Assembly (NCBI RefSeq): GCF_964355755.1
Contig: NC_092672.1
Span: forward strand, 5,828,001 to 5,892,000
DNA length: 64,000 bases
Origin: Antedon mediterranea
Taxonomy: Eukaryota > Echinodermata > Crinoidea > Comatulida > Antedonidae
Direction of reading: 5' to 3'
The notes under the pieces were generated by a model. That model saw only the letters and a program-made list of their open reading frames with translations. It did not search any database and was not told the origin of the DNA. Shown in pieces: positions 33,846 to 58,116 of the stretch (the first letter of the stretch is position 1; the number at the start of each line of letters is the position of its first letter). The position numbers and the translations under genes are program-made.

Positions 33846-34695
33846 TTTTATCCAGGGATTTTGTTGTGCAGGGATGTTGTTGCGCAGGGAATTGTTGTCC
33901 AGGGATGTTGTTGCCTAGGGAGATACTTGTTCAGGGATGTTGTTGTACAGGGAGGTAGTTGTGTAACCTTTGATTGTAATTAGTGGTAGTATAACACTAA
34001 CAGTAGTCAATAAACAATCTTGACATCCAGCTCTTTAACCGTACTCCTCTATTGCGTTATTATACACCTTACATCGCCATGATGTATCTCACCTCTTCAA
34101 CCCACGAGGTTCTCTCTATGAACGCCCTCTATAGCGTGACCTTAACTTCTGGGGTTACAGTTGTACAAGGGGATTGTTGTCCAGGGATGTTGTTGTACAG
34201 GGAGGTAGTTATACAGTGAGGTAGTTATACAGGGATGTTGTTGTCCAGGGATGTTGTTGTGCATGGAGTTTGTTGTCCAGGGATGTTGTCGTCCAGGGAG
34301 GTAGTTATACAGGGAGGTAGTTATACAGGGAGGTAGTTATACAGGGAGGTAGTTATACAGGGAGGTAGTTATAGAGGGATGTTGTTGCGCAGGGGATTGT
34401 TGTCCAGGGATGTTGTTGTACAGGGAGGTAGTTGTACAAGGGGATTGTTGTCCAGGGATGTTGTTGTCCAGGGATGTTGTTGTTCAGGGATGTTGTTGTA
34501 CAGGGAGGTAGTTAACTTATACAGGGAGGTAGTTATACAGGGATGTTGTTGTACAGGGATGTTGTTGTGCAGGGATGTTGTTGTGCAGGGATGTTGTTGC
34601 ACAGGGGATTGTTGTCCAGGGATGTTGTTGTCCAGGGAGATACTTGTCCAGGGATGTTGTTGTACAGGGAGGTTGTTGTACTGGGGGATTGTTTT
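33846..34695. repeat. CAGGGATGTTGTTG / CAGGGAGGTAGTT minisatellite field
   Basis: Degenerate ~15-bp units (CAGGGATGTTGTTGT, CAGGGAGGTAGTTATA, AAGGGGATTGTTGTC) fill 33846-33961 and 34160-34695, interrupted by a solo LTR. Long open frames on both strands here are by-products of the repeat. Confidence 0.93.
33962..34159 (+). mobile_element. 198-bp solo LTR
   Basis: Starts TGTAACCTTTG and ends GGGGTTACA (TG...CA with TGTAAC/GTTACA). It has an internal AATAAA and is flanked by GTTG on both sides (33958-33961 and 34160-34163). Short LTRs of this form occur in Gypsy/Mag-like elements and TRIMs. It was inserted into the minisatellite, which makes the borders clear. Confidence 0.75.
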
Positions 34696-36342: not shown

Positions 36343-37440
36343 TTACACTGTTGATGAATCATTGTTCTTAGAGTTTGATGTTGAAGCTTCTTCCTTCGAC
36401 CTCCCGAAAAAGTGCCGGCAAGTAATGATCCGTTTGTACGCGTTGCGAAAATGACGATTCCTCCAAGCATATATAAATGGATTAACACTAGAGTTGGCTA
36501 ATGATAATAAAGCAAATGCGTGAACAAGCACACTAGGAGCCGAGTGGTTTCTATCAAAAACAACTTGCAGAACAGCTGGTGTCCAACAAATCATAAACGT
36601 TATGAGAATAATGAAAGATGTTTTTGCTACTTTGATTTCCCGGTTTTGTTTTTTCATGTATTTTGATAAGTTTCTTTGTAGTTTATGGAGAGTTCTGACT
36701 GAGCTAGCAACACTCACCTGGCTGGTTGTACTGTTTTTACGTCGTCTACTTCGTCTAGAGCTCATCTGGACCGTTTTACAAATTTTATAGTAACAGAAAA
36801 AAAAAGTCATCATAGAAAACGCAAACATTATTAACATAGTAATAATTTGGTATATCCATGAATCATTGGTAGCTTTTATACCGCATGCCACAAGGTATTC
36901 ATTGTATCCAAAAACATCAATGGCACTTCCAGCAGGCAATACTAAGATGAAACTTCCAACCCATATCATGACACAGTAAAATATTGAACGGCATGTTGTG
37001 TAAAGAGTTGCATAACGTTGGTTCTGTACTATACAAAAGTAGCGATTTACCGCAATGGCTAAAAGGTTCAACACTGATGATACTAATGCTATAATTGCCA
37101 TTGCAGCCAATATGACACAAAATGTTTTTGAGGAGAACGGCCATCTGTCACTAATCAAAGTTAACAAATAAAACGGCTCGATAATCACGCAGACAATTAT
37201 GTCAGCTAGAGCTAAATTCACGAGGAAATAATTTCCTGTAATTCGTAGTTTATTTGTACGAACGATTGCAACGATTGTCAACAAGTTACCAAAAAGTCCA
37301 ACGACACAGAGAATGCTTAAAATGATACTTTCAACAATTAATAGCACTTGCGTTTCTTGTGGCTCTTTGGCAGCATTGTCCGACCCATTCATCACATTAT
37401 TATCTAGACTACTCATCGTGTTGTTATCAGGACTGTTCAT
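36343..37440 (-). CDS. Class A GPCR, NRY-type (melatonin receptor-like), paralogue 1
   Basis: 365 residues, intronless, seven TM segments. The N-terminus has sequons NNT and NGS and a short repeat (SPDNNTM, SLDNNVM, GSDNAA). Key motifs: GN 51-52 (TM1), LALAD 76-80 (TM2), Cys108 with Cys186 (likely disulfide), NRY 132-134 in place of DRY, CWTP 285-288 (TM6), NPFIY 320-324 (TM7) and a Cys341 likely palmitoylated. A basic Ser/Arg-rich third loop (SSRRSRRRK). NRY with LRITxNYF and NQRYATLY recalls melatonin-receptor and moody/Tre1-type receptors, but TM7 has NPxxY rather than the melatonin NAxxY. Ligand unknown. Closest to paralogue 4 in the third loop. Confidence 0.92.
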   Translation of the reverse strand: MNSPDNNTMSSLDNNVMNGSDNAAKEPQETQVLLIVESIILSILCVVGLFGNLLTIVAIVRTNKLRITGNYFLVNLALADIIVCVIIEPFYLLTLISDRWPFSSKTFCVILAAMAIIALVSSVLNLLAIAVNRYFCIVQNQRYATLYTTCRSIFYCVMIWVGSFILVLPAGSAIDVFGYNEYLVACGIKATNDSWIYQIITMLIMFAFSMMTFFFCYYKICKTVQMSSRRSRRRKNSTTSQVSVASSVRTLHKLQRNLSKYMKKQNREIKVAKTSFIILITFMICWTPAVLQVVFDRNHSAPSVLVHAFALLSLANSSVNPFIYAWRNRHFRNAYKRIITCRHFFGRSKEEASTSNSKNNDSSTV

Positions 37441-37593
37441 TTCGTGATGTAATTATCTGGGCTGGTCGTGTTATTTTTGGACTGCTTGTTTCAACTTTGT
37501 GCTGTGAAATTGTATGGTTTTTAAAAATTGTATTTTTATTCAGGAACCATCTCTATGTCACTGAACAATCGCCTTAGGTTTTACCTGTACACT

Positions 37594-37623
37594 ATTCAAC
37601 CAATGAGAATGCTCTATCATCAA
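37594..37623 (-). promoter_or_regulatory. Conserved CCAAT-box block upstream of GPCR 1
   Basis: ATTCAACCAATGAGAATGCT followed by CTATCATCAA, about 155-185 bp upstream of the ATG. Matching blocks precede the other three tandem paralogues, and they share a TATCACTG / GAACAATC segment nearer the gene. Inferred proximal promoter or simply duplicated flank. Confidence 0.5.
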
Positions 37624-37981
37624 ACAATTCTCTGCTATTTTCAATTCATACATCAATCATTCCAGGAAGATTTCAACCACTATGATACAAACTCAGTTTT
37701 TTTGTCTTTCTATTTCCTTATTAATTGTGTTATTTTTTTTTTTATTTATTCGGTATATAAAAAATATATTACAAAACGACAGTCAAGGACTGAAATGAAT
37801 TGTATTACAAATATATAAAAATTAGTTAAAATTGCTATAAAAATAGAAACATCTAATTTAACATTTAATTAAAATTAAATATCGTACCATGAAATTAGAA
37901 AACATACATGAATAAAAAACCTCAAAACATTCACTTATTAGATATCTAAAAAATACTGGGGTACCAAATTACAAAATAAAA

Positions 37982-38460
37982 GAGCTAGTGGTGCCTATTA
38001 ATTATATCCACCATGGTGGGAACTGGAGACGACCCAAGTCTGCTGGTTTTACAATGAGGTACTTCTAGAAAGCGGTTGACTCTGAGAGACCGAGCTGGCT
38101 TATGAAGAGGGGGAAGTATTTCCCTAAACAGCTCGGATTTTAATAAGCCTTCCACGAAAGACAACACCAGTTTGTTTCTTGTCTCTACAAGAGTAGGTAA
38201 TCCAGTAACAGACAATGCAATGCATGATCATAGCACAAATAGGTGTTACCTAGCATGATTCATAATACTCTTTTTTTGTACTTTTTCAATAGACTTATCT
38301 TTAGTGATAGCGCCATGCCAAACAGGGGCAGCATATTCTAATATAGGTCTTATATACGGTAAGCCATATAAACAGTCAACAGATCATTAATTAAGATTAA
38401 ATAAAATAAACGTCTAGAAGCTCTAGACACAATATTATTAGTGTTAAGTATGAGATGAAT
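37982..38460 (-). pseudogene. CR1-like LINE reverse-transcriptase remnant
   Basis: Minus strand gives SRASRRLFYL, IRPILEYAAPVWHGAIT, then LSVTGLPTLVETRNKLVLSF and VPHCKTSRLGSSPVPTMVDI: the thumb and C-terminus of CR1 polymerases, across two frameshifts. Dead. Confidence 0.85.
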
Positions 38461-40194
38461 GAATGAGTACGAGTAGGAAATCCCATTCCTTATGTTTGGC
38501 GTACCGTAATTATGTACCCAGACCCCCATGGAACTATTCTCGGTCTTGTACAATATTTTGATATAAATTTTGTAGTACATCACATATAGTTCTGAAAAAA
38601 ACTGTTGAGTTTCTCAGAAGAGAAATTTAACAGTTCTTTTCAGGACTATATACATGTGGTGTACCACAAACTATATGTCAACATATTGATTTTGCCAAAC
38701 ATTTAAACAATAAATTGTATGATATTATTATACAATACAATAAAATATACATATACATATATCTCTTTTGGGACATCCCTATTCTTCGTATTGCTATCAG
38801 AACAGCTCATTTCAACATATGTCAAAATTGATTTGTATTTCAAGAAACATTGTGAAAATAGCAATGAGCTGATAACCTTATCCGAAAATATCACCATTTC
38901 AATCATACTATTTTATTCTATATGCCTACTTTGATCAAGTTATTGAAAAGTATGATGATGTCTGTATGATTTTTGTGCGTTCATGCCACAACTATCGACC
39001 AAATACAGTTATAACCAATGAAAAGGTCATCTTGTGAATTTAAACATGTGTTATAATTAATTATAAGAAGTAGTCTATTTTAAGATTTGACTTTTTAAGA
39101 TCAATTATTATGATTAGTTTTGATTAAATTACAAATGATACTTAGAATCCTTGAACAACTGTTATATATTAATAATAAATATGCTCTATGTTAACGTAAT
39201 GAAAGTGGTATAATCAGTATATGGAATATTGAAGGTTTCAGAGCAGAGCATAAGATTTTGCATGCCCCAATCTAGCATCCACATTTTTCTAGATAGGAGC
39301 AATGAACTATAGTGATATAATAATGTGAATGATAATATTGGAATAGCATATGATAGCCATGGGGGTGAGCCTATGTACCATACCGATTGCATCATTTAGC
39401 AAGATGCTTCACTCTCATTGGAGTATTTTGAGCGTTGAGATTGTTTAACGAAAAAGCTTTCGTTGCCAACGTTTTCTATTCAAAGACCTTCTGTTGAGCA
39501 CAAATTTACAATTCGAATACAAAAAGTACTCAACGAATCTTTACGTTGAAAACGAAAGTTCCCAATCGAATACGACAATTGCTTGTCCTTCAAATGGGAT
39601 GTAAAGCTGTCCCATGTAGTGCACCTTAAAGAACTTGGTATACAATTCGAGCCTGGTGTGCTGATCTAGTAGGCGCTGCACTGCTGGCTGCCATGGGTCC
39701 GTGGAGTGCCTAATCCAATTTTCCTCAGTTTCCAGTTAACTTTGAGTACGAATTTAAAATACATTCAACATTTTACATTTATATTTGCTGTTATATATAC
39801 TCCATAACCTTTTGTCATTATATTGACTTTACTTGTACGTGAACAACATTATACCAGGACTTTAAAGACCAGAGTGCCACTCATAGAGATGCCATTTGTA
39901 ATATGCTATCAAAAACATTTGTTTAAATGTGTAATAAAGCGGTTTTACGAAGATTTTGACTTTATTTTCTGGAACTACCGATTTTTATTATAGTTAGATT
40001 TTTATTGCTATCTTGTGACCTGAAGAATACATAGCTCTTATATATTTAGCATTTACAATATTATGATTGTTGATTTCTACACATTGCACTTAAAGTACAA
40101 GTCATTAGTAGAATACAGATTTCTTGAAAAATATATTAATAGCTTTTTTAAAGCAATATTTCCTTGAGATTGAAAAACATTTTATTTTTTGTTT
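38461..40194. other. Intergenic between GPCR 1 and GPCR 2, repeats only
   Basis: A diverged SINE-like piece at 39598-39720 (GTGCACCTTAAAGAACTTGG, GGTGTGCTGATCTAGTA) matches the family A body. The block 39855-40000 (TTTAAAGACCAGAGTGCC, GTAATAAAGCGGTTTTACGA) is repeated at 41515-41720. No gene seen. Confidence 0.55.
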
Positions 40195-40560
40195 TGTAAT
40201 ATTTAAGATGTATTGTCCTCAAAAAACATGAAAAATGAAGATTAATTAAATCAGACTTTAAATATGCCGTTTTGTAGTTTTAATAATGGTAATCACTTCC
40301 GTAGAAAAAAGAATTAAAGCAAATAATGTTTTCACTTATAAAATGACAAAATAGATGGTTAAATTCAACCAAAAACCCATTGGCTGGCAGCTAATTTGAC
40401 TAGTTTTCGCTTTAAATTTAGGTAAATACATTTTGTTTCAATCAAATTTTTGGTTAAACTGAATAACTATTATATTAAAATGAAATTTTTCATGGGACAA
40501 TTATACATGTAAATACTGTTATTAAAACACAATTTGTTTTTGAAAGGTTAAAAAAATGAA
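40195..40560. repeat. Interspersed AT-rich repeat R1, copy 2
   Basis: Begins AAGATGTATTGTCCTCAAAA and contains AATGAAGATTAATTAAATCA and GTTTTCACTTATAAAATGAC, as at 4585-4990. Directly followed by a SINE. Confidence 0.65.
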
Positions 40561-40585
40561 TTTTTCTGCTTTTAAATACAAATTG

Positions 40586-40888
40586 GTGAGTGGCCGAGCG
40601 GTTAAGACAGTGGAACCGTAATTACGTAGCCATAACATCGGCAAGGGTTCGAGGCTCACTCGCTCCATGGTTCTGGTGGTAGAACGAGTCTTCTCGGATA
40701 AGGACTATAAACCGTAGGTCCAGTGTACACATCTAGCTCGTGTGCACTTTAAAGAACCTAGTACATCTTTCGAGACGAGTAGGGGGTTACCCCGGTGTAT
40801 TAGTACATCACAGCCACTGATCACCAACTGGGCCCTCTGGGAGACCAGTCTTTGACTGAAGAGGTTACCCAGTATAAATATAAATTTC
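40586..40888 (+). mobile_element. tRNA-derived SINE family A, best-preserved copy
   Basis: Complete head (GTGAGTGGCCGAGCGGTTAA, GGGTTCGAGGCTCACTCGC) and body (AGTACATCTTTCGAGACGAG, GGTTACCCCGGTGTATTAG, GGGCCCTCTGGGAGACCAG), with the end CTGAAGAGGTTACCCAGTAT. A mirror of this body gives the minus-strand shadow peptide seen also at 3338. Confidence 0.93.
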
Positions 40889-41869
40889 AAAATTTTGGTT
40901 AGGTTCTACTAATTTGTGCCATTTATTCCTGCCGTAGGCCAGATGCGTGGGTCAGTGTAATTTAATAAGTCATATTATGTTAATTATTATTTATCCTTTA
41001 TATTTTTAATAATGGCGGCCAGTATAGATTCATGTCCTGATTCTTTAGTTCATTGTCATACAGAATTATAAACTCTTTTATATACTTTTATCCCCTTTGA
41101 AGACAATAAAAGAATTATTAGTTGGATTGTCAAGGTCCCCGGATATACTTTATGCCACTAAAACCAAATAACTTTATGAGGCCATAATTTTTTTTTTCCT
41201 TTTATTCCTGATCAGTTTTTGTGGATTGAATATGGATCTGAATAAATTTTATTATACCAATTAAATTATAAATAATTGATTAATAATCCAAAGTCTTATG
41301 GAAGGCCATATAGATTTGTTGGTTCGTTGAATTTGATTTGATTCTAGTCATTAAAATACTTCTATGATTTACTGTATGGTTTAGCAATAAAACGCAAAAC
41401 ATTTTAATAAAATGCAACAAAAGCAATTTCTTCAGATCAAAATGTCACAATGTAATGTATAAATGACGTACAAAGAATTGTACTGGTATTTGAACAGCAT
41501 TGAACCAGGAATTTGGATTTAAAGACCAGGGTGCCAGGTTACAGTACCACTCATCTATCAGATACCCTTTGTAATATGATTAAAAACATTTGTATGTATG
41601 TAATAAAGCGGTTTTACAAAGATTTTATCCGCGTTCAATTTCTAGAAATTCTTTCATCACTACCGATTTTATTGTTGTCTTTTACTTGGAATAAAAAACT
41701 ATTTTACTTGGAATGTTTGTTGTACGGTACGTAAACTTCCTTGTATCTTTAGGGTCAACCTGACCGTAGTGAACGGATTTAAAGTGAGTTTATATTACAA
41801 ATTGAGTTTATATTTGCCAGTTTCCTTCTAAACTCATTTACATTGTAGCTGGATTTTTACTGAGCTAAA

Positions 41870-42900
41870 CAAGTTTTTTTCCAGTTTTTGTAGAACTATT
41901 AATTATTAACCATAATAGTTCATAGGCAAACGTGCAAATGAGTTAAGGTTAAGTTAGTTTTTTGATGTTGCACCATTGAAATTACCTAAAACTCGGCTTG
42001 AAGTCCGTTGATACTACAATTGAGGCCAAAATCGCCCCAGTTTCAAAACAGATTCAATTTAGAGGTTTTTTTTATAAAAATTGAGTCTTAAATATTCCTT
42101 TCTTTCATGATAATGAAACTAATATATGAACATGGACACGATGTGTTATGGTGCTTAGTTGCTGATGTGACTAAATAAAAATGAGAATTATTCACATAAA
42201 CTATGCATAGGTTAGTGTTTGCCAATGTTATTTTTATTAATAAATGTGAATGTTAAACATACATATTAGTGTCCAATTAGCAAAATAAGGTTTTTTAAAA
42301 GTAACTTTTAATATTAATACAGTATTTCCTTTACACAATCGTCTATTGCTAATTCAATATCATGTCGTTGGTGTAAAAATTACTTTACTTTATAACAGTC
42401 AAATTGTATTAGTAATGGAGGATTTAATGAAAAGATTTATATAGAAATTACTATCTATTTTCTGAACAAATATTTAAATTTGTTTATATTAAATTATACA
42501 ATTATATTATGAAATTCAGTAATCCATGAAATAAGGGTGTCCCAAAGGAAGGTTCTAGTCAGAAATATTACAATACTTTCTTCCAAGATTCTGCAAAGGT
42601 TATTGTATCAGAACAAGTACTTAACGAATCAAGATATCAAAATCTGTTAAAAACAACTGATGCAGATGTTAAAAGTGTATTTACAGTACTCCAAGGTTAT
42701 GTGTTTAATTTTATTTGTTATTAAAACTAAGAAGTTGCCTATTATATATTATGTATTTGATATATTTAAAAAAATAATGCTTACATAGACATTTAAAAAA
42801 ATTGAAAAAACAAGCCTTAAATATGATTTATAACTCATCTTCTAGTCCAGCATGTTAAATTGTGTGTCATGAATATAGTAATCATTGAATGTCCTCTGTG
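41870..42900. repeat. Downstream duplication block of GPCR 2 (copy of 44650-45620)
   Basis: Long collinear match to 44650-45620: AGAACTATTAATTATT, CATAGGCAAACGTGCAAATG, TAATGAAACTAATATATGAA, TGTTAAACATACATATTAGT, CAACTGATGCAGATGTTAAA. The two blocks lie 3' of GPCR 2 and GPCR 3 and mark the duplication unit. The rest of 40889-41869 is unique AT-rich DNA plus the second copy of the 39855 block. Confidence 0.9.
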
Positions 42901-42980
42901 AGTGTTTGCTGTTTTAAGCCGATTTTCAACTAGGTGAATTTGTTCGCGCAAATGGAAAGCAGGAATTAAGAATTCCTGTT

Positions 42981-44138
42981 TTATAACTTGGTTGTCAAAT
43001 CATCAGTCCTTTGTCTTGGTGAAACGTCTTTAACTGACTTCTCAAAAAAGTGCCGGCAAGTAAAGATCCGTTTGTACGTGTTGCGGAATTGTTGATTTCT
43101 CCAAGCATATATAAATGGATTGATGCTAGAGTTGGCTAATTCCAATAAGATAAACATGGGAGCAAAAACACCAGGAGCCACGTGAGTTCTGTCAAAAACA
43201 ACTAGCAGGACAAACGGTGTCCAACAAATAATAAATGCAGAGAGAACAATGAAAGATGTTTTTGCTACTTGGATTTCTCGTGTTTGTTGGTTAAGTTTGC
43301 TTTTTGATAGATGTTTCTGTAGTTTAGTAAGGGTTCCGACAGAGCCAGCAAGACATACCTGACTGGTTGTGTTGCTGCTACTACATTGTTTAGTTCTTGT
43401 AGAGCTCATGTGGGCTTCTTTCCAAATGTTATAATAACAGAAGACAAAGGTAATGATTGAAAATGTAAATAGTATTACCATACTAATCGTTTGGTACATC
43501 CATGATTCATCGCTATCTATAAATCCGCATCCTAGATAGGGTTCATCGAATCCAAGTATGCCAAATCCTGCAGGAATTATTGTGGATGAAATTGAACCAA
43601 CCCATATCATGACGCAGTAAAATATTGTGCGGCGTGTTGTGTAAAGAGTTGCATAACGTTGGTTCTGTACTATACAAAAGTAGCGATTTACAGCAATGGC
43701 TAAAAGATTCAACACTGATGATGATAATGCTACAACTGCCATTGCAGCCAATATGGCACAAAATGTGTTTGAGGAAAACGGCCATCTGCCACTTATCAAA
43801 GTTAACAAATAAAACGGCTCGATAATCACGCAAACAATTATATCAGCTAGAGCTAAATTCACGAGGAAATAATTTTCAGTAATTCGTAGTTTATTTGTAC
43901 GAACGATCGCAACGATTGTCAATAAGTTACCAAAAAGTCCAACGACACAGAGAATGATTAAAATGATAATTTCAACAATTAATAGCACTTGCGTTTGTTG
44001 CGGCTCTTTTGCAGCATTATCCGACCCATTCATCATGAGATTATCTAGACTATTCATTGTGTTGTTATCTGGACTGATGCTCATTTCAACGTATTCTGTA
44101 AAATTATATTCCCTTGGGTCTAAGGACCCAATCACCAT
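42981..44138 (-). CDS. Class A GPCR, NRY-type, paralogue 2
   Basis: 385 residues, intronless. N-terminus with sequons NFT, NNT and NGS and the SPDNNTM / SLDNLMM / GSDNAA repeat. TM1 GN 70-71, LALAD in TM2, NRY 151-153, CWTP in TM6, NPFIY in TM7, then CRHFF. Its third loop (SSTRTKQCSSSNTTSQVCL) and second extracellular loop (GFDEPYLGCGFIDSDESW) resemble paralogue 3 closely. The first Met is 18 residues upstream of the Met (MSISPDNN) shared with paralogue 4, so the true start may be 44084. Confidence 0.92.
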   Translation of the reverse strand: MVIGSLDPREYNFTEYVEMSISPDNNTMNSLDNLMMNGSDNAAKEPQQTQVLLIVEIIILIILCVVGLFGNLLTIVAIVRTNKLRITENYFLVNLALADIIVCVIIEPFYLLTLISGRWPFSSNTFCAILAAMAVVALSSSVLNLLAIAVNRYFCIVQNQRYATLYTTRRTIFYCVMIWVGSISSTIIPAGFGILGFDEPYLGCGFIDSDESWMYQTISMVILFTFSIITFVFCYYNIWKEAHMSSTRTKQCSSSNTTSQVCLAGSVGTLTKLQKHLSKSKLNQQTREIQVAKTSFIVLSAFIICWTPFVLLVVFDRTHVAPGVFAPMFILLELANSSINPFIYAWRNQQFRNTYKRIFTCRHFFEKSVKDVSPRQRTDDLTTKL

Positions 44139-44300
44139 GTGAATATTCTGGTCTGTTCATGTTATTTTCTAGACTGCTTTTTTTATTAATCAGACTGTTC
44201 GTTTCAACGGATGCTGTGAAATTGTATGGTTTTGTTATCTATTCGGAAACCATCGTATATCACTGTTTTGAACAATCACCTTTGTTTTAACATTTAATAT

Positions 44301-44330
44301 ATTCAACCAATGAGAATGCTCTATCATCAA
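44301..44330 (-). promoter_or_regulatory. Conserved CCAAT-box block upstream of GPCR 2
   Basis: ATTCAACCAATGAGAATGCT then CTATCATCAA, identical over 30 bp to the block upstream of GPCR 1 and about 160-190 bp from the ATG. Confidence 0.5.
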
Positions 44331-44649
44331 ACTATTCTCTGCTATTTTCAATTAATACATCAATCACTTTATTCATTTTTAAAAACCACAAGCAGATTTC
44401 AATCAGTGTTCTACACGATATAAAGTCAGGATTGGTTTTCGTCTTTGTATTTCCTTATTATCATATGAGAGTATAATCATTTTTTTACGCCTCCCCTCAT
44501 CGGACAATTCTAGCTTATACAATACAATAAAATATTTTCTCTTTTTCGTTTCGTTGCGCGAACGGTGAGAATGCTCAGGCTTATAAATTCATGGTGTTTT
44601 ACGCTATATAGCTTCCTAGCTTATAATAGATTGATTCGTATATGATTTT

Positions 44650-45620
44650 TTTTCTAGTTTTTGTAGAACTATTAATTATTTATAGTTCATAGGCAAACGT
44701 GCAAATGAGTTGAGGTTAAGTTAGTTTTTTTAATGTTGCACCAATGAAATTACCTAAAACTCGGCGTGAAGTCAGTTGATACTACAATTGAGGCCAAATT
44801 CGTTTTTTAGAAATTATTTAAGTCTTTTTTTTCCTTTATTTTTTTTTTTACCTATTTCTATAAAAATTGAGTCTTCAATAATATGCCTTTCTTTCATGAT
44901 AATGAAACTAATATATGAACATCACGATGTGTTATGGTGCTTAGTTGCTGATGTGACTAAATAAAAATGAGAATTATTCACATAAACTATGCATAGGTTA
45001 TTGTTTGCCAATGTTATTTTTATTAATAAATGTGAATGTTAAACATACATATTAGTGTCCAATTAGCAAAATAAGGTTTTTTAAAAGTAACTTTTAATAT
45101 TAATACAGTATTTCCTTTACACAATCGTCTATTGCTAATTCAATATCATGTCGTTTGTGTAAAAATTACTTTACTTTATAACAGTCAAATTGTATTAGTA
45201 ATGGAGGATAATGAAAAGATTTATATAGGATACAGTATAGTAATTTTCTGAACAAATATTTACATTTTTTTATATTATATTATACAATTATATTATGAAA
45301 TTCAGTAATCCCTGAAATAAGGATGTCCCAAAGGAGGGTTCTAGTTAGAAAAACTGCAATACTTTCTTCCAAGATTTTTTTACCGAATCAGGATATCAAA
45401 ATCTGTTAAAAACAACTGATGCAGATGTTAAAAGTGTATTTACAATACTCGAAGGTTATGTGTTTAATTTTATTGTTATTAAAACTAAGAAGCCTATTAT
45501 ATATTGTGTATTTGATATATTTTCAAAAATAATGCTATACATAGATATTTTTAAAAATTGAAAAAGCAAGCCTTAAATATGATTTATAACTCATCTTCTA
45601 ATCCATATCATGTAATCATT
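44650..45620. repeat. Downstream duplication block of GPCR 3 (copy of 41870-42900)
   Basis: Collinear with 41870-42900, with small indels such as the loss of TTGAT-type segments and a T-rich insertion at 44820. The 45640-45885 segment after it (GCGAAGCGAAATATTGCGAA ... ATTCGCGCGAACAAATTCAC) has no counterpart there except an inverted ~35-bp piece at 42910-42945, suggesting a MITE end. Confidence 0.9.
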
Positions 45621-46186
45621 GGATGTCCTCCGAATAGTTCAAATTGTTTCTACTTTTTGCGAAGCGAAATATTGCGAAACCAATCAGAGCCCAGGAAATG
45701 AGCCATGACGCTTTCATGAGCACTCATGCGAATCGAAAAGCTCAGCAGCCATGCGAGGAACATGAAAGTCGCAGCTAATTCGCTCATTTAGTGGAAAGAG
45801 AGTAGCGCGATTGTTTTTCTCTTCGAAACATTGGATTCGCGCGAACAAATTCACCTAGTAGAAAATCAGCTTTACCAAACCTCTAAATTCTAAGATCTTC
45901 ATATGTCATATTAAACTCCACCTCATAACAGCTTTCATCAGATTCATGAGTTACTGTATGTTATTTCTTCTTTCTTATCATCTCAAAGTGCCATATTTTT
46001 TCATTAAATTCCACATTTTGTCTGATAGACAATTTGTAGATCCATTAAGCCTAGTGTTATCCTGAACATTCTGCCGTATAGATTTGGCCAACTTATTGTT
46101 CAACTTAGTTCTTCCCAATGGACACACTTCTCATAGGCCTTACTGACTGCTATGCATGAATTAAGAATTAAGACAAAATTCCTACT

Positions 46187-47302
46187 TTATAACTCGGTTG
46201 TGGAATCATCAGTCCTTCGTCTTGATGAAATATCTTTAACTGACTTCTCAAAAAAGTGCCGGCAGGTAATGATCCGTTTGTATGCGTTGCGAAATTGTCG
46301 ATTCCTCCAAGCAAATATAAATGGATTGATGCTAGAGTTGGCTAATGACAATAATACCAACATGGAAGCAAGAACACTAGGAGCCACATGTTTTTTATGA
46401 AGAACAACTAGCAGGACAAACGGTGTCCAACAAATTATAAATGCAGAGAGAACAATGAAAGATGTTTTTGCTACTTGGATTTCTCGTGTTTGTGTGTTAA
46501 GTTTGCTTTTTGATAGATGTTTCTGTAGTTTAGTAAGGGTTCCGACAGAGCCAGGAAGACATACCTGACTGGTTGTGCTGCTGCTACTACATTGTTTAGT
46601 TCTTGTAGAGCTCATGTGGGCTTCTTTCCAAATTTTATAGTAACAGAAGACAAAGGTAATGATCGAAAATGTAAATAATATTACCATATTAATAATTTGG
46701 AATATCCATGAGTCATCACTATCTATATATCCGCATGCTAGATAGTGTTCATTGAATCCAAGTATGCCAAATCCTGCAGGAATGATTACAATTGAACTTC
46801 CAACCCATATCATGACACAGTAAAATACTGTACGGCGTGTTGTGTAAAGAGTTGCATAACGTTGGTTCTGTACTATACAAAAGTAGCGATTTACAGCAAT
46901 GGCTAAAAGGTTCAACACTGATGATGATAATGTTATTATTGATATTCCAGCCAATATGACACAAAATGTGTTTGAGGAAAACGGCCATCTGCCACTGAAC
47001 AAAGTTAACAAGTAAAACGGCTCGACAATCACGCAAACAATTATATCAGCTAGAGCTAAATTCACGAGGAAATAATTTGCCGTAATTCGTAGTTTATTTG
47101 TACGAACGATCGCAGCGATTGTCAACACGTTACCAAAAAGTCCAACGACACAGAGAATGATTAAAATGATACTTTCAACAATTGGTATCACTTGCTCTTC
47201 TTGTGGCTCTGTGTTGGTAACATTATCCGACCCATTCAACATGTTATTATCTAGACTACTCATCATGGTGTATTCTGTAAAATTATCTAATGACATGATC
47301 AC
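46187..47302 (-). CDS. Class A GPCR, NRY-type, paralogue 3
   Basis: 371 residues, intronless. Sequons NFT, NGS and NVT in the N-terminus; GN 57-58, LALAD 82-86, Cys114, NRY 138-140, CWTP, NPFIF (Phe in place of Tyr in the NPxxY motif), CRHFF. Third loop near-identical to paralogue 2. The NPxxF change may alter activation. Second extracellular loop GFNEHYLACGYIDSDDSW. Confidence 0.92.
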   Translation of the reverse strand: MIMSLDNFTEYTMMSSLDNNMLNGSDNVTNTEPQEEQVIPIVESIILIILCVVGLFGNVLTIAAIVRTNKLRITANYFLVNLALADIIVCVIVEPFYLLTLFSGRWPFSSNTFCVILAGISIITLSSSVLNLLAIAVNRYFCIVQNQRYATLYTTRRTVFYCVMIWVGSSIVIIPAGFGILGFNEHYLACGYIDSDDSWIFQIINMVILFTFSIITFVFCYYKIWKEAHMSSTRTKQCSSSSTTSQVCLPGSVGTLTKLQKHLSKSKLNTQTREIQVAKTSFIVLSAFIICWTPFVLLVVLHKKHVAPSVLASMLVLLSLANSSINPFIFAWRNRQFRNAYKRIITCRHFFEKSVKDISSRRRTDDSTTEL

Positions 47303-47426
47303 CGTGTGATTATCTGGGCTGCAAGTTTTGCGTGTGCTGTGAAATTGTATGGTTTTGTTATTCAGGAACCATTGCTATATCACTGTTTTGAACAATCACC
47401 TTTGTTTTTAACCTTTATAACTGTAT

Positions 47427-47456
47427 ATTCAACCAATTAGAATGCTCTATCATCAA
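47427..47456 (-). promoter_or_regulatory. Conserved CCAAT-box block upstream of GPCR 3
   Basis: ATTCAACCAATTAGAATGCT then CTATCATCAA, one change from the GPCR 1 and 2 blocks, about 125-155 bp from the ATG. Confidence 0.5.
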
Positions 47457-49536
47457 TCAGTGTTTTACAGGATATTAAACAATACAATAACATATTTTCT
47501 CATTATCGTTTCGTTTTTTTTGTTTTTGTATTTTCTCATTATCTAATATTTTGATTTATAGTGATGAAAACCAAAATTTCAAATTGTAACTTTATCAAAC
47601 TAACAGTTTAGCTGTATCTCTGGAAATACAGGTCCGATTTTAAAATTAAGGTATTTTTTTTAAAGAGAGATCTTAAGGAATCTAAATATAGCATTTGTGT
47701 GTGCTTTGGTGTACTCATGAGTTGGATAAAACTTTGATCTTTATTTTAACCTTGAAAATTAGAATGTTTTACGCTATTAGCTTCCCAGCTTAAAATAGAT
47801 TGATTTGTATGCATGATTTTTTATTACAAGAACCCTTAGCACATAAAGAATAAAGCTATTTTTTCTTTTTTCTATATTGCGGGTTAATTCCTTTTATTTA
47901 ATTCCTTATTGTTCATTTTTTAAAACTACAAGCAGATTTCAATCAGTGTTCTTACACGATATAAAGTCAGGATTTGTTTTCGTCTTTGTATTTCCTTATC
48001 ATATGAGAGTATAATCATTTTTAAATTTACGCCTCCCCTCATCGGACAATTCTAGCTTATACAATGCAATTAAATATTTTCTCTTTTTCGTTTCGTTTTT
48101 TTTTTGTCTTTGTATTTCCTTATTTTCTAATATATTAATTTATAGCAGTAAAGCCAACATTTAAAATTTTGACTTTAATCGTAAAACGGATGGTTTTCGA
48201 GATATCGCAATTAAAATTTTTCGCGAATGGTGAGAATGCTCAGGCTTATAAATTCATGGTGTTTTACGCTATGTAGCTTTCTAGCTTAAAATAGATTGAT
48301 TCGTATATGATTTTTTATTGCAAGAAACTTTAACACATAAATAATATAATTTCTTTTGTCTATTGTGGGTTAATTCCACTTTTATTTCTTCATTTGTTAT
48401 AACATAATATACATAATTTTATGTAACATAAATAATAATATTGAAATCAATTATAAGCATTTACATTGCCACATACACATGTATAATGTATATATTTCTT
48501 TACTTACAGTATATTTACCATTTATTATAAAACAAGTTGGACAAAAAAATAGTTATTGTGAATAGCCAGCAATATCGTACTATTTAAACAATCAGTTTTG
48601 TTTAAACTTTAAAATGTTGCAATTTTTCACTAATTACCATACTGACACAGGTGTAAGCCCACCATCTGGTACGGTCCACTCCCTCCATTTTGTGCACAAA
48701 CAAACAAACTGGTATAAGTCCACCCTTAATTTTGAGATCTAAGAACACTCCTTTGTCCCTATTGTTACAGTGCAGTAGTTATGGGGAATTTGCTAATATT
48801 TCTTCCAAAATCTACTGTATATTGGCTATTAGTATTTTATATGAATAGCGAATATTTGAACAAAAATATAAAAGACCTTGGAGTTTCTTAACCTTTTAAT
48901 TTAATTTAATTTTTTGTATGATAACTTTATGGCCACCATTGAGATGAACAAGTGTTACTGTGATTAAATCAAGTTTGATTTAATATTATTATGATCTAGC
49001 CGAGAACATTAGCTGAAGTGTAAGGAGACAATTATCAGCTGTGTCTACTAGCTATCATTAAATATACTAGAAAATATCTGCAAATAAGCAATGTTTGTTT
49101 GTTTTTCTTTCATTGTCTTCCTCTTCAGATTACATGATTATCTTCTTTATATCTTGTGCCTCTATTTCCTCCAATCTGATTTTCAACTATCTTTTGATGT
49201 GATCTCTTATCATTACTTACTGTTCTACCAAACTCTAAAATTCCAAGCACTTTTCAGTACATCATTTTCATATGTCCCATAAATTTCATACTCATATCAG
49301 CTTCTTTCTTTCAGTTTTGTGTTTTGTTTTGTTCTGTCTTCCATTAATTAGTTATACCACTCCTTCATTTTGGTTCTTTTCAAAATTACTTTTTTTCTGT
49401 ATGTTCCACATTTTGGCACAATACATCAATTTACATAGACTTGGTAGTCATTTTCATTGTAAACATACAGCCATACAGATATGACCAACTCATTTACATT
49501 GTCAATTTCAATGAACTTCTCATACAGCTAATTTCT
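47457..49536. other. Intergenic, GPCR flank duplications
   Basis: 47930-48310 repeats 44390-44640 (AGCAGATTTCAATCAGTGTT, ACGATATAAAGTCAGGAT, TACGCCTCCCCTCATCGGAC, GGTGAGAATGCTCAGGCTTA), so the duplicated unit extends upstream of GPCR 2 and 3. The rest is AT-rich with a T/C-rich stretch at 49090-49400; no gene seen. Confidence 0.6.
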
Positions 49537-50694
49537 TTATGCTATTGTAGAATTATTGTTCCTAGTGTGTGAAACATCTTCAATTGCCTTCCCAAAAAAG
49601 TGCCGGCAAGTAATGATCCGTTTGTACGCGTTGCGAAAATGACGATTCCTCCAAGCATAAATAAATGGATTGACGCTAGAATTGGCCAATGACAATAAAG
49701 CAAATACCTGAACAAACACATTAGGAATCTTGTATTTCTTATCAAAAATAACTTGCAGTACAATCGGTGTCCAACAAATCATAAATGTTATGAGAACAAT
49801 GAAGGATGTTTTTGCTACTTGGATTTCTCGTGTTTGTGGGTTAAGTTTGTTTATTGATAAATGTTTCTGTAGTTTGTTTAGGGTTTTGACAGAACCAGCA
49901 AGACTTACCTGACTGGTTGTGCTACTTTTACGTCGTCTACTACGTCTAGAGCTCATATGGGCCTCTTTACAAATTTTATAGTAACAGAAGACAAAAGTTA
50001 TCATAGAAAAAGCAAACATTATCGCCATAGTAACAATTTGACAAAGCCATGATTCTTCACTTACTTTATATCCGCAAATTAGAAGGTGTTTGTTGAATCC
50101 AAACTCGCCAAAACCAAAACTTGCAGGCATTATTAATGTGAAACTAACAACCCATATCATGACACAGTAAAATATTGTACGGTTTGTTGTGTAAAGAGTT
50201 GCATAACGTTGGTTCTGTACTATACAAAAGTAGCGATTTACCGCAATGGCAACAAGATTCAAAACTGATGATGATAATGTTATAATTGATATCCCAGAAA
50301 TTGTAGCACAAAACATGTCGGACAGTGGCCATTTGCGATAAAACAAGCCCAGCAAATAAAACGGCTCGACAATCACGCAGACAATCATATCCGCAAGAGC
50401 TAAATTTACGAGGAAATAATTTGCCGTAATTCGTAGTTTATTTGTACGAACAATCGCAACTATTGTCAACAAGTTACCAAAAAATCCAACGACACAGAGA
50501 ATGATTAAAATGATACTTTCAACAATTGCTATTACTTGCCCTTCTTGTGGCTCTATGTTGGTAACATTATCCGACCCATTCATGTTATTATCTAGACTAC
50601 TCATTGTGTTGTTATCTGGACTGATGCTCATTTCAAATGTATTCTGTGAAATTATATTCCCTTTTTGCTGAGCAATGATGAAAAACAATAGCAA
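49537..50694 (-). CDS. Class A GPCR, NRY-type, paralogue 4
   Basis: 385 residues from the first Met, intronless. GN 73-74, LALAD, NRY 153-155, CWTP, NPFIY, CRHFF. Third loop SSRRSRRRKSSTTSQ is like paralogue 1. Extracellular loop 1 is changed (FYRKWPLSDMFC) and loop 2 reads FGFNKHLLICGYKVSEESW. Residues 1-21 are hydrophobic and unlike the others; Met22 (50631) starts the shared MSISPDNN and places the CCAAT block at the same distance as in its sisters, so 50631 is the likelier start. Confidence 0.92.
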   Translation of the reverse strand: MLLFFIIAQQKGNIISQNTFEMSISPDNNTMSSLDNNMNGSDNVTNIEPQEGQVIAIVESIILIILCVVGFFGNLLTIVAIVRTNKLRITANYFLVNLALADMIVCVIVEPFYLLGLFYRKWPLSDMFCATISGISIITLSSSVLNLVAIAVNRYFCIVQNQRYATLYTTNRTIFYCVMIWVVSFTLIMPASFGFGEFGFNKHLLICGYKVSEESWLCQIVTMAIMFAFSMITFVFCYYKICKEAHMSSRRSRRRKSSTTSQVSLAGSVKTLNKLQKHLSINKLNPQTREIQVAKTSFIVLITFMICWTPIVLQVIFDKKYKIPNVFVQVFALLSLANSSVNPFIYAWRNRHFRNAYKRIITCRHFFGKAIEDVSHTRNNNSTIA

Positions 50695-50760
50695 ATGGAA
50701 AGATACCTATTCAGGAACTATTTATGTATCACTGTTTTATTTATTTTTACCTTTGCTTCA

Positions 50761-50790
50761 GTCAACCAATGAGAATGCGTTGTCATATTA
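50761..50790 (-). promoter_or_regulatory. Conserved CCAAT-box block upstream of GPCR 4
   Basis: GTCAACCAATGAGAATGCGT then TGTCATATT, less well conserved. It is 67-96 bp from the upstream ATG but 130-160 bp from Met22, matching the other paralogues. Confidence 0.45.
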
Positions 50791-50948
50791 AATTCAATCA
50801 GGGTATTTTGTGCTATAACAGCTTCCTGTCCTTACAAATAGATTGATTACCTTTACAAAGAGTGATTATGCTTTATAGTGTGATTTGCTGAAAATACAAG
50901 GAACTTATCGGCTTATAACAATAAAGCTCACTTTATTATTTTCTTTTT

Positions 50949-52525
50949 AGGTGATCATTTAGAATAAAATGATCACCTATTGTTATTGTATGAAATCTTT
51001 ATTGTTGTTTTTATTGTTTCTGTACACTATTTTGTGTAACAATTATCTCAAAAAGTTTAATGTCAATGATTACCAAAATTTCACAATGTCTTTCAAATAC
51101 TTTAACTTAGTCCTAATAAGCTTTTCAGCGTGATCACTCATCCGTGACGTCATTTATACGCCATTTTGTGAAATCACATTATCAATCATATCTCCATAAT
51201 TCATTATCACATATTAATGAATTTCACTATAAATAAACTTCAGGTCAAGATTAAAAATATTAGCTAATAAAACGCACGTGCACGTAGGGTCATACGCGTG
51301 AAATCGCGCGTTAACAATTTAAAAAGCTCAAAATTAAGTTTTGATCAATTCAGAGCATGAATTAGGCCATTTGCGTGTTTAAAAAAATTACTGCGCAAAA
51401 ATGCATTTTTGCGCGTGCGATTCTTAAAAAGTGTAAAAATATGATTTTTTTTATAGAAATCGCATTCTACTCACCATCCTTAGTACATTCACCAAATTTG
51501 AATCCGTTCCGACTTAAAATAACGCTATACGAGCATGTTCAAAATGACAAAAAGCGCAAATAAATAGCATCAAAGTGCTGAAAATGGTGAAAAATAAGGC
51601 ATTTTTAAAATGAAAATAATTCTTCAGAATGCACAATGACCCCCAATTTTTTTTAATTATTCTGGAAGCCATTGAGTTGTAGATATTAATTCATGTACAC
51701 ATTTGACGTACAAAATGTTTTTATGTCATGAAATGGCCACTCGAATTTAAAAAATAGGTTTTTTTCACTTTCGTCATAGATTATCACATTCAACAGAGCG
51801 CATCTCGGTTATTTTGTGCCCGATTTTTGCTCAAATTTTAGTATATGATTGCTCAATTAATTATCTTTCTCATGAGTTGTCAACATTTTCATTTTTATGA
51901 CGTCATCACGCGTAAAAACTTGAATAACGTAGGTCGTGTAATTTTACTTACACCATAATGTTGAATATCTTACAGCTCTTCAGAATAAAATGTGACCTTG
52001 ATGATTATAATTTATTATGAAAGCTGATGAAATGTAGATATGAATTAATATAAAAATTAAGCCTATCGGATGTTGTGACATTATGAAATGGCCAGTTGAA
52101 GTTAAAAAGTAGTTTTTTCCTCTCTTTCGTTAAATTTATACAAATTTCAAAGAGCGCGCAGTGCGCTTCTACGTGCCAAATTTTCTTCCAAATCTTATAA
52201 TCTTTTGCTCAATTCATTGTCTTTCAAAATTGTGATCTTCAAGTTTATTTTGACAACGTCATCATACCAACAAATTAGAACATGATGTGGGTCCCGTAAT
52301 TTCACCTATGCTACACTGTATATGGATATACAGTATACTGTACATATTATATGACACATATTAGGTACAACTACTCAGCACTATAAGCATATATGCATCA
52401 TGTCGTAGGATGGTGACTTTTTACGATCGTATGTTAATGTACATGCATGTTTAAAAATTTTTAATTTCATTAAAATGATAAAAATGATCACCTATAATTC
52501 GTCAAAGTGACGAATTAAATTCTAG
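50949..52525 (+). mobile_element. Helitron/Helentron-like non-autonomous element
   Basis: The 3' end has a perfect 9-bp-arm hairpin AATTCGTCA-AAG-TGACGAATT (52496-52516), then AAATT and CTAG before T, the Helitron terminal pattern. The 5' end has the palindrome AGGTGATCATTT ... AAATGATCACCT (50949-50979), and AAATGATCACCTAT recurs just before the 3' hairpin. The interior is AT-rich with CGCG-containing patches and no Rep/helicase ORF. The 5' border is uncertain. Confidence 0.55.
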
Positions 52526-52639
52526 TTTAAATTTTGTTGTTGTTTGTTTTGTGGTACTAGACAAAATCCCCATTAAGAGTACACTGTCAGGGCCTAACAT
52601 GTCCTCTGAATGAATTTTAGTGTATAAAATATATGTTGC

Positions 52640-52960
52640 CCCTTGCCACATTTCAATGATGTATTGTTCTTACAAAAATGTTGTTGGATATTCCATTTTA
52701 ATGTTACATAATAGTTATCCACTTGACCAAAAACTTGATCGAAAATAAATGTATTTACCTGAAAAATGTAATTTAAAGCAAAAAATAGTCAAAATGGCTG
52801 CGTGCCAGCCAATGAATTTAACCATTTATTTTGTCATTTTATAAGTAAAAACATTTTTTTTTCATTTTTTCTATGGAAGTGATTAACTTTATTCAAAGTC
52901 TGATTTTATTAATCTTTATTTTTCATGTTTTTGGAGGACAATACATCTTTAATAGGGATG
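52640..52960. repeat. Interspersed AT-rich repeat R1, copy 3 (inverted)
   Basis: Contains GTCATTTTATAAGTAAAAAC and GGAGGACAATACATCTTTAA, the reverse complement of the R1 segments at 4585 and 40195. A further fragment lies at 22770-22830. GGGATGTCC/GGGCTGTCC repeats follow to 53000. Confidence 0.6.
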
Positions 52961-53514
52961 TCCTTTAAATAGGGCTGTCCCTTGAATAGGGCTGATCCAC
53001 ATGAGGATTATACTCTAGGAAGATAATGTAAAGATATTTAAAGTGGCATATATTGTAATATGTAATTGGAGCATTGGACACTATTCATATTTGTTCATTC
53101 CACCTGGAAGAAGAATATGTCATGTATGTAGCCAGATGTAATACAGATTTGTATTTAAATTTATTCATTCAATAATTACAGTATATGCAATTTCTGAGTA
53201 TACTCCAGTTAGACATAAATTATCAACCTAATAATTCCAAGAAATTATTAATGAAGTTCAGAAAAGATTTAATACTTACTAAATGTTAAGACAAATATAA
53301 TATTAATTATTTATAATATTCTATCATCCCACTATTAGTGGTGGGTGTATACTCAGTTTAGTTCCTGTCTGACCAGTTATTGAATGAACATACTCGGTCT
53401 GTCCCATTCATAGCCACTCGTTATAAATAGTCTGTGTTTTCAATAACCCCTTCCTATTCATATACGAGGGCGTACTTTCGTTTTTTTTTCTAAGTTCATA
53501 TGTACAGCGCTTTA

Positions 53515-53660
53515 TTTATTTATTTATTTCATTCCTTTCAGTAAAGACAATACAAACATAACATAAAACGTGAAAGTAGAGCACTGAGGAGAGACAAAAG
53601 CTGTCAAAGACTACTATCGCCAAAGGGTGTGCCTCTCCAACTCCAACTTTAGAGGTTTCA
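53515..53660 (-). mobile_element. Probable LINE 3' end
   Basis: (TTTA)n tail followed by TTTCAGTAAAGACAATACAA, matching the style of other minus-strand LINE tails here. Neighbouring 53335-53830 has CCATAGCCACTAATTGG-type repeats of unknown origin. Confidence 0.35.
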
Positions 53661-54164
53661 CAACATTGGCCGCTTTATAATCCAGGATATTATAGCCACG
53701 CTTAACCAGTAGCGATATATTGAATATACCCAATGTGTTATATAAACCCTTCCCATCCATAGCCACTAATTGGTGTTTTCAACACCATAGTAACTGAATG
53801 GGTGGGTTCCTGGGCTACCAAATATTGTTTAACCATAACCATTTTTTTTTTTTGCTGTAATAATGAAAGTATTTAAGTCGCACTTAAAGCTGGTGTAGTG
53901 CGTAATTGTAAGTATTGTTATCACATTTTAACGTCATTATACTGGCTTTGTTCTCCATGATTAAATTAATAAATCTTTAAGATGTATGGTTTACTAATTT
54001 ATACCTGTATAATTATTACAAGTATGACATTTGATATGTGCCCACGTATTTATTATGCTTTATAAACTATTTATAACACATACGTCAGTAAATTACTAAA
54101 TATGCGTCTGTTATGCGTCTGTTATTTACGCAACAAGGGCATTTTGTGAGTTCAAATTATTCTA

Positions 54165-54380
54165 CTCCTTTTGGTGACCGATATAAAAAAATCCTTTTCA
54201 GTTTCAATGAATTTGTTTATTCTGCCCATGCCATCTAGAGTTACTACTGCAATAAGACGAAAATCTGGTCTGGTTTTTGGTCTTCCTCAGCCTCATACAC
54301 CTGTTCTTGGCATCTATTCTCTTGTCGTTCTGGTGAGGTGGCCTATCCATTTTTACTTGTTGCCGGATGTGTCCTGAACC
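54165..54380 (-). pseudogene. LINE remnant with GHLTR / GRPKTR motif
   Basis: Minus strand reads KWIGHLTRTTRE, then a stop, then GRPKTRPDFRL, like the C-terminal WxGHxxRM...GRPxxRW segment of RTE/Jockey-type polymerases. Short and broken. Between 54400 and 56140 I see only a CTAGAGGG...CCCCCTCTAG hairpin (54692-54726), a poly-G run (55112-55127) and AT-rich DNA. Confidence 0.5.
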
Positions 54381-56141
54381 TTCATTTGGCTATCTAATCC
54401 ACTTTTAGTTTTTTCTGTCCAATTACATCATTGTGTTTTTTGTTTCTTTTCTTATTTTGCTTTTTGGTTCAGAGTGATTCTGCTTCATAAAAAATATTTA
54501 ATTTTTTTTTCTGAATTCATTACAAAACACTATTCTGTTTGCTATTTTTAACATTTTCCTAATTTTCTTGATACAAAGTTTCTAATGAATTTAATATTGT
54601 TTGGTGCCCTCTATAGGTGAGTATATATTTCTATGGAAAATTACGTTAATATTAAAATTGTGTTTTGTCTTCTCTCAAAATTATTATTACTAGAGGGTGA
54701 GCTCGCTTCGCTCGCTCCCCCTCTAGGAAGTGTAGACGATGGTTCTCGGAATGATAATGTTCTCCAAAATGCTTGACATTCGTAAAACTAAACTACTTTG
54801 TTTCACAGTGTTTTAGATGATTAATAACATTTTAAAGTATAGTTTTTATTGTTTGGTAGGGCCCTTTGAGGAGGCGGAGGTCATTTGAGGGAGGTGCTTA
54901 TTCAAGGGATATATGTTAAATTTTTTAGTTCTAATAATATGGTAACATTTATAATCAAATGAAATCCTCTCATAGATATGAAAAGTGGTAAAAAAGAATA
55001 ACAAATGCTTGGTAAATTGCAGATAACAGTGCGGTGAATTCTACTACAAATAGTATAATTGTGTTATTATAAATATGTGGATGGACGTTTATTAGATAGT
55101 TGGGTTGTGGGGGGGGGGGGGGGTTATTATTCAAAGTGATGTTTAATTGGAGAGGCGTTTATTCAAATGAATACCATCCTAATAATTATTAATACATTAT
55201 TTAATTTAATCATCTTTTGAAACTAACTGCCGTGACAGAGTGGGCCCAAGAAAGAAGACATTACGGCTTGCAACATGGGCAGACATCTCGGTCCTAACGG
55301 GACACAGGAAGATAGCCTACAGTTATTCCTGCAAGCTTACTCAATAAAACTCAGCAATCGGGATTTCACTCGAAAAATGTCTTATCAAATCTCCCTATGT
55401 AATTTTATAATACTATTCCCCACAATATATTCTGATTCTTTATGGCGTATATTTAATTTGATCTTTATTAATTTGCAGTATAATTCCTATTATTTAACTA
55501 CTGTACCTTCACACACGTGTGGTATGTTTTAAAATAAACAAAAAACTGAAATGGCTATGATTAATGGCCAATTTTTTTTTCGTCTTCCAAAGGGACACTG
55601 TATTGATTGATGGAAAGTGCCTGTTTCCAGTCACCTTTAGGGTCAAATCTATTATTTTAACTGCTCCCTTGTGTATAAAAGAGAGAAAATATTTGGTGAA
55701 CTTATCTTAAACCCGGAAATTACTTTGACCGGGAAGAATTGAAATTGAGAGGAAAATCCAATGTTGAAATCATAAATGTTGTTAAAAAACTCTTTATAAT
55801 ATCTTCCTAAGATATAAATATGGAACAATAGCGTCGGCGTGCACACTAATGTTATCAAATCTACGTTTCGCGGTACATCTCGGATAGATAAGGTAGGTAT
55901 CCAAGGCGGAGATTTGTAACGAAGTTTTTGCATTGTGCTCGCCTATGTCAGAATTAACCATAATTTATATATAGATAAATACGTCTTGGTGGTTTTAGTG
56001 TTCTTAAATTATTATAGTTACTTTAATAAATTTAATAGCAACATCTTTGACTTGTCTGCGAAGATTAAAAACCACAACCAAAAACACAAAGCAATTATAG
56101 AGGGCAGGAGACAGCAATTTGAATAGAACATTACCTTTACT

Positions 56142-56275
56142 AAAGCCTTGTCTTCACTATCAAACTTTATGTGATGTGCCCATATATTTACATGATCATG
56201 TCATACCGCTACCATATTTGGGCACATTACACTTTTTTTTTGTAAAACTAGTTTGATAGTATAGACAGAGCTTAA
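56142..56275. mobile_element. Palindromic TTAA-type MITE, copy 10
   Basis: TAAAGCCTTGTCTTCACTAT at the left and AGTTTGATAGTATAGACAGA then GCTTAA at the right, around CATGATCATGTCATACCGCT. It lies 3' of the GPCR 5 gene. Confidence 0.85.
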
Positions 56276-56994
56276 AACTCATAAAAGAAAGTATTGCTAT
56301 TTACAGTATCACAGGATTTCGCTCATTTATTTCAATCCAAATAATTTATTTACAAAAACCATAATAAATTTGTACAGATTTAAAAAAAAAATGATAATAA
56401 TTTACATTTATATATCTTAAGATTAATATTATTAAAAAATTAATTGTACATGATATGCTGGTATAAACAAATTTAAATTATAATTTTACATTTTAAGTTA
56501 TTTTTAGTTAGTAAAACTACATTTGCTGTAAATAATAGAATTGCTTTATATAACATAGGTCAAAGTGGTATTATTTTAATGGTTTATAGTTCCAATGTCA
56601 ACTTAATTAATGGTGTTTAAATTGATGTTTCTAGAGGCGTAATCTACTAAAGAGCTACCAACACAAATTCTACTGCTTCTTCAAGCCGGACTATTTACGC
56701 ATGACAAACATTTGTAATAAAAATGCTATTTTGCTAAATGAAAATTGAGTGTTTATCAGAAATCTGATTTTAAAATTCTAGAGGATCTGATAATTTGGTT
56801 TAAAAATTATTAATTTATGATATTAATTATTATTTCTAAATTATTTATTTAAAAATAAGAGAGGAAAAGTATAGTACCCTAGAATATTGTCGAGTACAAT
56901 ATGCATAGCATTTCCATCAAATAAATCAAACGCCTTTATTTTAAATATTCCACGAGGATGGGAAGGAAGTTCGCTCCTTTTTAGGTTATATATT

Positions 56995-58116
56995 TCACAT
57001 TTTGTTGGTTGTACTGTCCATTTTCGACACGTCGTGTTCATCCTCTCCAGGTCTCAACCAGTGGCGGCATTTGATAATTCTAATGTAAGCCAATCGGAAG
57101 CCACGATTTCGCCAAGCATAGATGAAAGGGTTAACGCTGGAATTAGTTAATGCGAGTATTGCGGTTATTTGTCGAAGTAGATCGGGTGCTTTGTAGTATT
57201 TGTCAAATACGGTTAGCAAAACGGATGGAGTCCAACATATAACAAATGTTAGAAGCACAATAAGTAACGTCTTCGCTACTTGCAAATCTCGTTTTTTCGG
57301 AAGCATCGTCATATTTGATGATTTATGACTTTTCATTCGAGAAAATGTTGATTTTTTTTCCTCAACGCAATTAATATTACTGTTCGATTCGCTGTTGGTG
57401 CTTGTAATGCGCTGTGTTCGACGAGAACTATCTTGCATACGCTTGTAAATGTTGCAGTAACAGTAAACAATAACGCACGTTGAAGCTACGAACATGATGA
57501 CCATAGAGACAATTTGGTAAACGTATGATGCATGCGTGGCTGGATATCCGCATATCATAAGGTGTTCATTAAAACCGAAATCACCGACACCTGCAGATGG
57601 TAACACTATCGAAAGAAAGGATATTGCCCAAATTACCAAGCAATATATAATGGTACGATTGCTACTGAACACCATGGCGTACAATTTATTCTTCACGATA
57701 CAATAATAACGGTTCACCGAAATTGCCAATAGATTTATAACCGAAGCTGCTAAACTCAAACAAGTTAACGCACCAATCGTTTTGCAGAATTCCGTGGACA
57801 TTGGCCAACCACGATATATCAGAGATACGATGTAAAATGGTTCAATGATCACACACACAAGAATATCCGCAATCGCTAAGTTGATTAGGAAATAGTTTGT
57901 TGTGATGCGTAAGCTTTTCGTGCGGAAAATGGCAATAATTGTAAGAGTGTTACCCAATAATCCAACCATACTAATAATGATTAAGAGTATAACTTGTAAA
58001 CAGATGGCAACTTGATATCCAGTGGACAACAACTCAAACGACATTCTGCTTGGCGCGACATCATCAGTACTAAAAGTGACATCATCATTAGGGACTGTAG
58101 TAGTAACCTCATCCAT
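56995..58116 (-). CDS. Class A GPCR, NRY-type, divergent paralogue 5
   Basis: 373 residues, uninterrupted coding exon. Same architecture: GN 55-56, LAIAD, NRY 135-137, Cys in GWPMSTEFC and LMICGYP, CWTP, NPFIYAWRN, KCRHW. The N-terminus is acidic (DEVTTTVPNDDVTF) and lacks the DNN repeats; the third loop has a Ser/Asn-rich insert (TSTNSESNSNINC). It is clearly older than the 36-50 kb paralogues. A good acceptor (TTTTCTCTTACAG) ends at 58165, so a 5' UTR intron is likely. Confidence 0.93.
   Translation of the reverse strand: MDEVTTTVPNDDVTFSTDDVAPSRMSFELLSTGYQVAICLQVILLIIISMVGLLGNTLTIIAIFRTKSLRITTNYFLINLAIADILVCVIIEPFYIVSLIYRGWPMSTEFCKTIGALTCLSLAASVINLLAISVNRYYCIVKNKLYAMVFSSNRTIIYCLVIWAISFLSIVLPSAGVGDFGFNEHLMICGYPATHASYVYQIVSMVIMFVASTCVIVYCYCNIYKRMQDSSRRTQRITSTNSESNSNINCVEEKKSTFSRMKSHKSSNMTMLPKKRDLQVAKTLLIVLLTFVICWTPSVLLTVFDKYYKAPDLLRQITAILALTNSSVNPFIYAWRNRGFRLAYIRIIKCRHWLRPGEDEHDVSKMDSTTNKM

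Follow-up and report, generated by a model that had tools for sequence, protein, structure and literature searches.

Five single-exon NRY-type class A receptors in a tandem array of the crinoid Antedon mediterranea, with divergence concentrated in the ligand-facing half

The window analysed here is a stretch of 64,000 nucleotides of Antedon mediterranea DNA, located on contig C3 at 5.83-5.89 Mb of an assembly of 354 Mb with 11 chromosome-sized contigs. Five intact single-exon class A GPCR genes lie side by side on its minus strand between 36343 and 58116, in agreement with a preliminary description of the locus (Table 1). No internal stop was present in any of the five ORFs, and all of them are covered by a full-length Pfam 7tm_1 domain (positions 1-260 of 260; E values from 1e-41 to 2e-51). 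Since the listed ORFs of copies 3 and 4 open with GTG and TTG, their likely starts were placed at the first in-frame ATGs; in copy 2, the second ATG, at 44084, corresponds to the start of copy 4. An acceptor-like tttctcttacag located 5' of the ATG of copy 5 suggests a possible intron in its 5'UTR. Neither further copies nor recognisable remnants were found within the window.

Table 1. Receptor copies, duplicated flanks and other features of the window (positions are those of the window).
Feature	Position	Strand	Description
Copy 1 (g1/L003)	36343-37440	-	365 aa, NRY, NPFIY; mosaic, 5' part g2-like and 3' part g4-like
Copy 2 (g2/L004)	42981-44138	-	385 aa, NRY, NPFIY; likely start 44084 or 44138
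Copy 3 (g3/L005)	46187-47302	-	371 aa ORF, likely ATG 47296, NRY, NPFIF (Y7.53 replaced by F)
Copy 4 (g4/L002)	49537-50694	-	385 aa ORF, likely ATG 50631, NRY, NPFIY
Copy 5 (g5/L001)	56995-58116	-	373 aa, NRY, NPFIY; older paralogue
Non-coding flank downstream of copy 2	41874-42849		87% identical to 44647-45605
Second copy of flank, between copies 2 and 3	44647-45605		87% identical to 41874-42849
Minisatellite	476-1422		44 bases, 21 copies, 97% uniform
Cyclophilin-type isomerase exon	1528-1854	-	sequence recalls PPIL2
Minisatellite	5350-5874		16 bases
Major facilitator superfamily transporter	16216-17559	-	447 aa, single exon, VMAT-like in appearance
CAF1 ribonuclease match in exon	22742-23053	+	PARN/TOE1-like gene
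ORF with weak GIY-YIG match	24615-25115	-	below the Pfam cut-off; recalls Penelope-like element endonuclease
Minisatellite	32050-32341		18 bases
Minisatellite	34174-34685		16 bases

Class membership is clear from the full domain together with R3.50, the C3.25-ECL2 cysteine pair, W4.50, P6.50 and N7.49-P7.50. The NRY motif announced for the whole set was found in every copy, as were both cysteines, W6.48 and P6.50. Two other motifs had been attributed to all five receptors, and each holds in four of them: the TM7 motif is a normal NPxxY (NPFIY) except in copy 3, which reads NPFIF, and the segment NQRYATLY is confined to copies 1-4, with NKLYAMVF at that place in copy 5. Residue 3.32 is T, S or A, and because the aminergic D3.32 is missing, aminergic receptors were ruled out as the identity of the copies.

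Copies 1-4 share 68-84% of their amino acids with one another and 44-48% with copy 5, which agrees with the proposed division into four duplicates and an older paralogue. The term "recent" used for these duplicates fits copies 2 and 3 best, with a dS of 0.14; for the remaining pairs among copies 1-4 dS is 0.33-0.40, and the synonymous sites of copy 5 are saturated. The non-coding flanks were duplicated along with the genes, therefore the duplication took place at the DNA level and not by retroposition. On these grounds we rejected retrogenes as the source of the tandem copies, a second reason being that relatives on contigs C1 and C10 are single-exon too. Informative sites among copies 1-4 are clustered (runs test p=0.0003), those of the 5' part supporting 12|34 and those of the 3' part 14|23, and copy 1 groups with copy 2 over its first part and with copy 4 over the rest. 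This site pattern of copy 1 is what gene conversion or unequal recombination leaves behind. Overall dN/dS among copies 1-4 is 0.43-0.65, and since it stays below 1 in every region and all frames are open, the copies are, judged by their coding sequences, constrained proteins and not pseudogenes.

When the genome was searched with copy 5, the other four copies came out on top (48-53% identity), followed by a pair of single-exon receptors on C1 with 15 kb between them (39%) and by three single-exon receptors within 11 kb on C10 (35-39%). With array members 44-84% identical to each other versus 39% for the best match of copy 5 elsewhere in the genome, the kinship within the array is, by this measure, far beyond chance. 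The five copies, the C1 pair and the C10 trio make up a ten-gene group in which every gene is a single-exon ORF. One of the C10 relatives, L011 (C10:18.387 Mb), has a very long ICL3, most of it built from short ISGEVGDISKCNAV-like repeats within a single open frame. NRY occurs in 13 of 87 receptor proteins taken from the genome, namely the ten-gene group, L014, L015 and L078, the last of which lies outside the group; L019 has NRF. A further locus, L057 (C3:10.09 Mb), also carries NRY, and its frame stops after TM4, being probably split by an intron. A larger tandem cluster is present at C3:31.55-31.65 Mb, with at least ten DRYWM-type class A receptors (L016-L018, L022-L025, L028, L030 and L059), mostly in single open frames and with internal stops in some.

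Phylogenetic relationships were examined in a 90-row tree made of the five copies, 82 further receptors of the genome and human MT1, MT2 and GPR84. The human MT1 and GPR84 sequences agree letter for letter with the solved chains, and that of MT2 was taken from the alignment of chain 7vh0. The five copies formed a single clade with full support (100/100) instead of being split among families, and the ten-gene group was recovered both in this tree (97/87) and in a 32-row tree (92/86). The single clade, the shared duplicated flanks and the gene conversion bear out the local expansion of intronless NRY receptors that had been proposed. In the 90-row tree, the group lies near a clade of L014, L015 and L019 and near human GPR84 (fork 96/94), which falls beside the group and not inside it and whose very long branch makes its placement unsure. 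Motifs set the two apart, GPR84 having GRY and Y6.48 where the array has NRY and W6.48. Human MT1 and MT2 fall outside the ten-gene group and inside a wider supported group (98/84).

The likeness to melatonin receptors pointed out in the preliminary description is real at the level of this neighbourhood, shared with GPR84 and recovered by trees and profile search, but does not extend to membership. The array shares with MT1, MT2 and GPR50 the NRY motif, an LR-x-x-x-N-x-F segment after TM1, a similar ICL2 segment (NRY...Y..[LVI][YF]) and W6.48. When a profile of eight group members was compared with solved structures, MT2, GPR50 and MT1 were among the top matches and melatonin receptors came first, which they did with the profile only, single-sequence searches giving a mixed aminergic and melatonin ranking. 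In the reverse direction, the C1 relatives were among the best matches of human MT1 in the genome. However, forcing the window genes into a clade with MT1 and MT2 was rejected in the 32-row tree (AU test, p=0.0225), and the array has NPxxY/F instead of NAxxY and S instead of P at 5.50. Of two ligand contacts of MT1, Q181 in ECL2 is replaced by V, A or D, and N162(4.60) by A or P. Mutation of N162 disrupts MT1 (PMC8786939). Because of the rejected clade and of these four missing features, we conclude that the array does not consist of melatonin receptors, and the idea that the copies are true, expanded melatonin receptors is very improbable indeed. Somewhat easier to defend, and still improbable, is the idea that the copies are a local expansion orthologous to the moody/Tre1-type receptors of insects and act in the migration of cells or in forming a barrier. 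Drosophila Tre1 carries NRY (PMC3848830), as the array does, and the ten-gene group lies close to GPR84 and to other NRY receptors of the genome. Against this idea, those other NRY/NRF receptors (L014, L015 and L019) form a clade of their own, and it is L015, with NRYILIT, that recalls the NRYILIACH of Tre1.

Differences among the copies are unevenly distributed along the protein. TM boundaries were placed by motif anchors, since the AlphaFold model of the five window sequences was poor (pLDDT 45, pTM 0.33). Among copies 1-4, 74 of 120 positions (62%) are variable in the ligand-facing part, versus 55 of 200 (27%) in the cytoplasmic half (Fisher test, 2.5e-9). The corresponding dN/dS values are 0.63 and 0.37, a marginal difference (permutation p=0.04), and dS is likewise higher on the ligand-facing side (0.41 versus 0.24), so that the contrast is partly due to uneven gene conversion rather than to selection. 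Constraint is tightest in ICL1/TM2 (dN/dS 0.09) and in TM7-H8 (0.20). This pattern of divergence fits receptors in which the signalling interface stays the same while the ligand site varies.

On balance, we consider it rather probable that the array encodes functional plasma-membrane class A receptors with a constant intracellular half, and that the chemical cues sensed differ from copy to copy but belong to one class. The ancestor would already have been an intronless NRY-type gene close to the melatonin and GPR84 receptors, from which the copies would have been made by unequal crossover, with partial homogenisation by gene conversion. The constant ICL1, TM3-ICL2 and TM7-H8 would preserve G-protein coupling, probably to Gi/o, judging from melatonin receptors and GPR84. 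Because the ligand-facing half diverges, the copies most likely bind different members of one cue class, and the divergent ECL2, TM6-ECL3-TM7 and top of TM2-TM3 would give each copy a different but related ligand, as in clustered single-exon chemoreceptor families. The Aplysia candidate chemoreceptors AcCRa, AcCRb and AcCRc are such a case, being class A-like, lineage-specific, chiefly single-exon and genomically clustered (PMC2700072). The array resembles them as a cluster of single-exon paralogues, although they belong to a different subfamily, with ERC in place of NRY.

The chemosensory or peptide-receptor role suggested in the preliminary description is plausible, and for a sensory role of the array we see close to even chances. 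Five copies are few for a sensory array, which speaks against our main reading and in favour of receptors for an internal signal, be it a neuropeptide, a hormone or a lipid, whose duplication would have served dosage or a division among tissues and not environmental chemoreception. The canonical class A anatomy and the kin in the GPR84/melatonin neighbourhood, which sense internal metabolites and hormones, point the same way. This alternative deserves serious consideration, but we hold it to be the less probable one, as change is fastest in the ligand-facing half and sensory families typically grow by tandem multiplication of single-exon genes, a mode of growth that the C1 and C10 relatives show too. 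A broader proposal can be put forward only tentatively and is, in our opinion, rather unlikely: that the ten single-exon genes in their three clusters (window, C1 and C10) represent an undescribed invertebrate chemosensory family on a melatonin/GPR84-like NRY scaffold, in which gene conversion pairs constant cytoplasmic halves with varied ligand sites. The literature searched yielded no account of a comparable NRY receptor array. If the array is sensory, a lineage whose chemoreceptors are poorly known would have put a melatonin/GPR84-like NRY scaffold to chemosensory use, and the five close receptors of the array would offer natural variation at the ligand site for deorphanisation.
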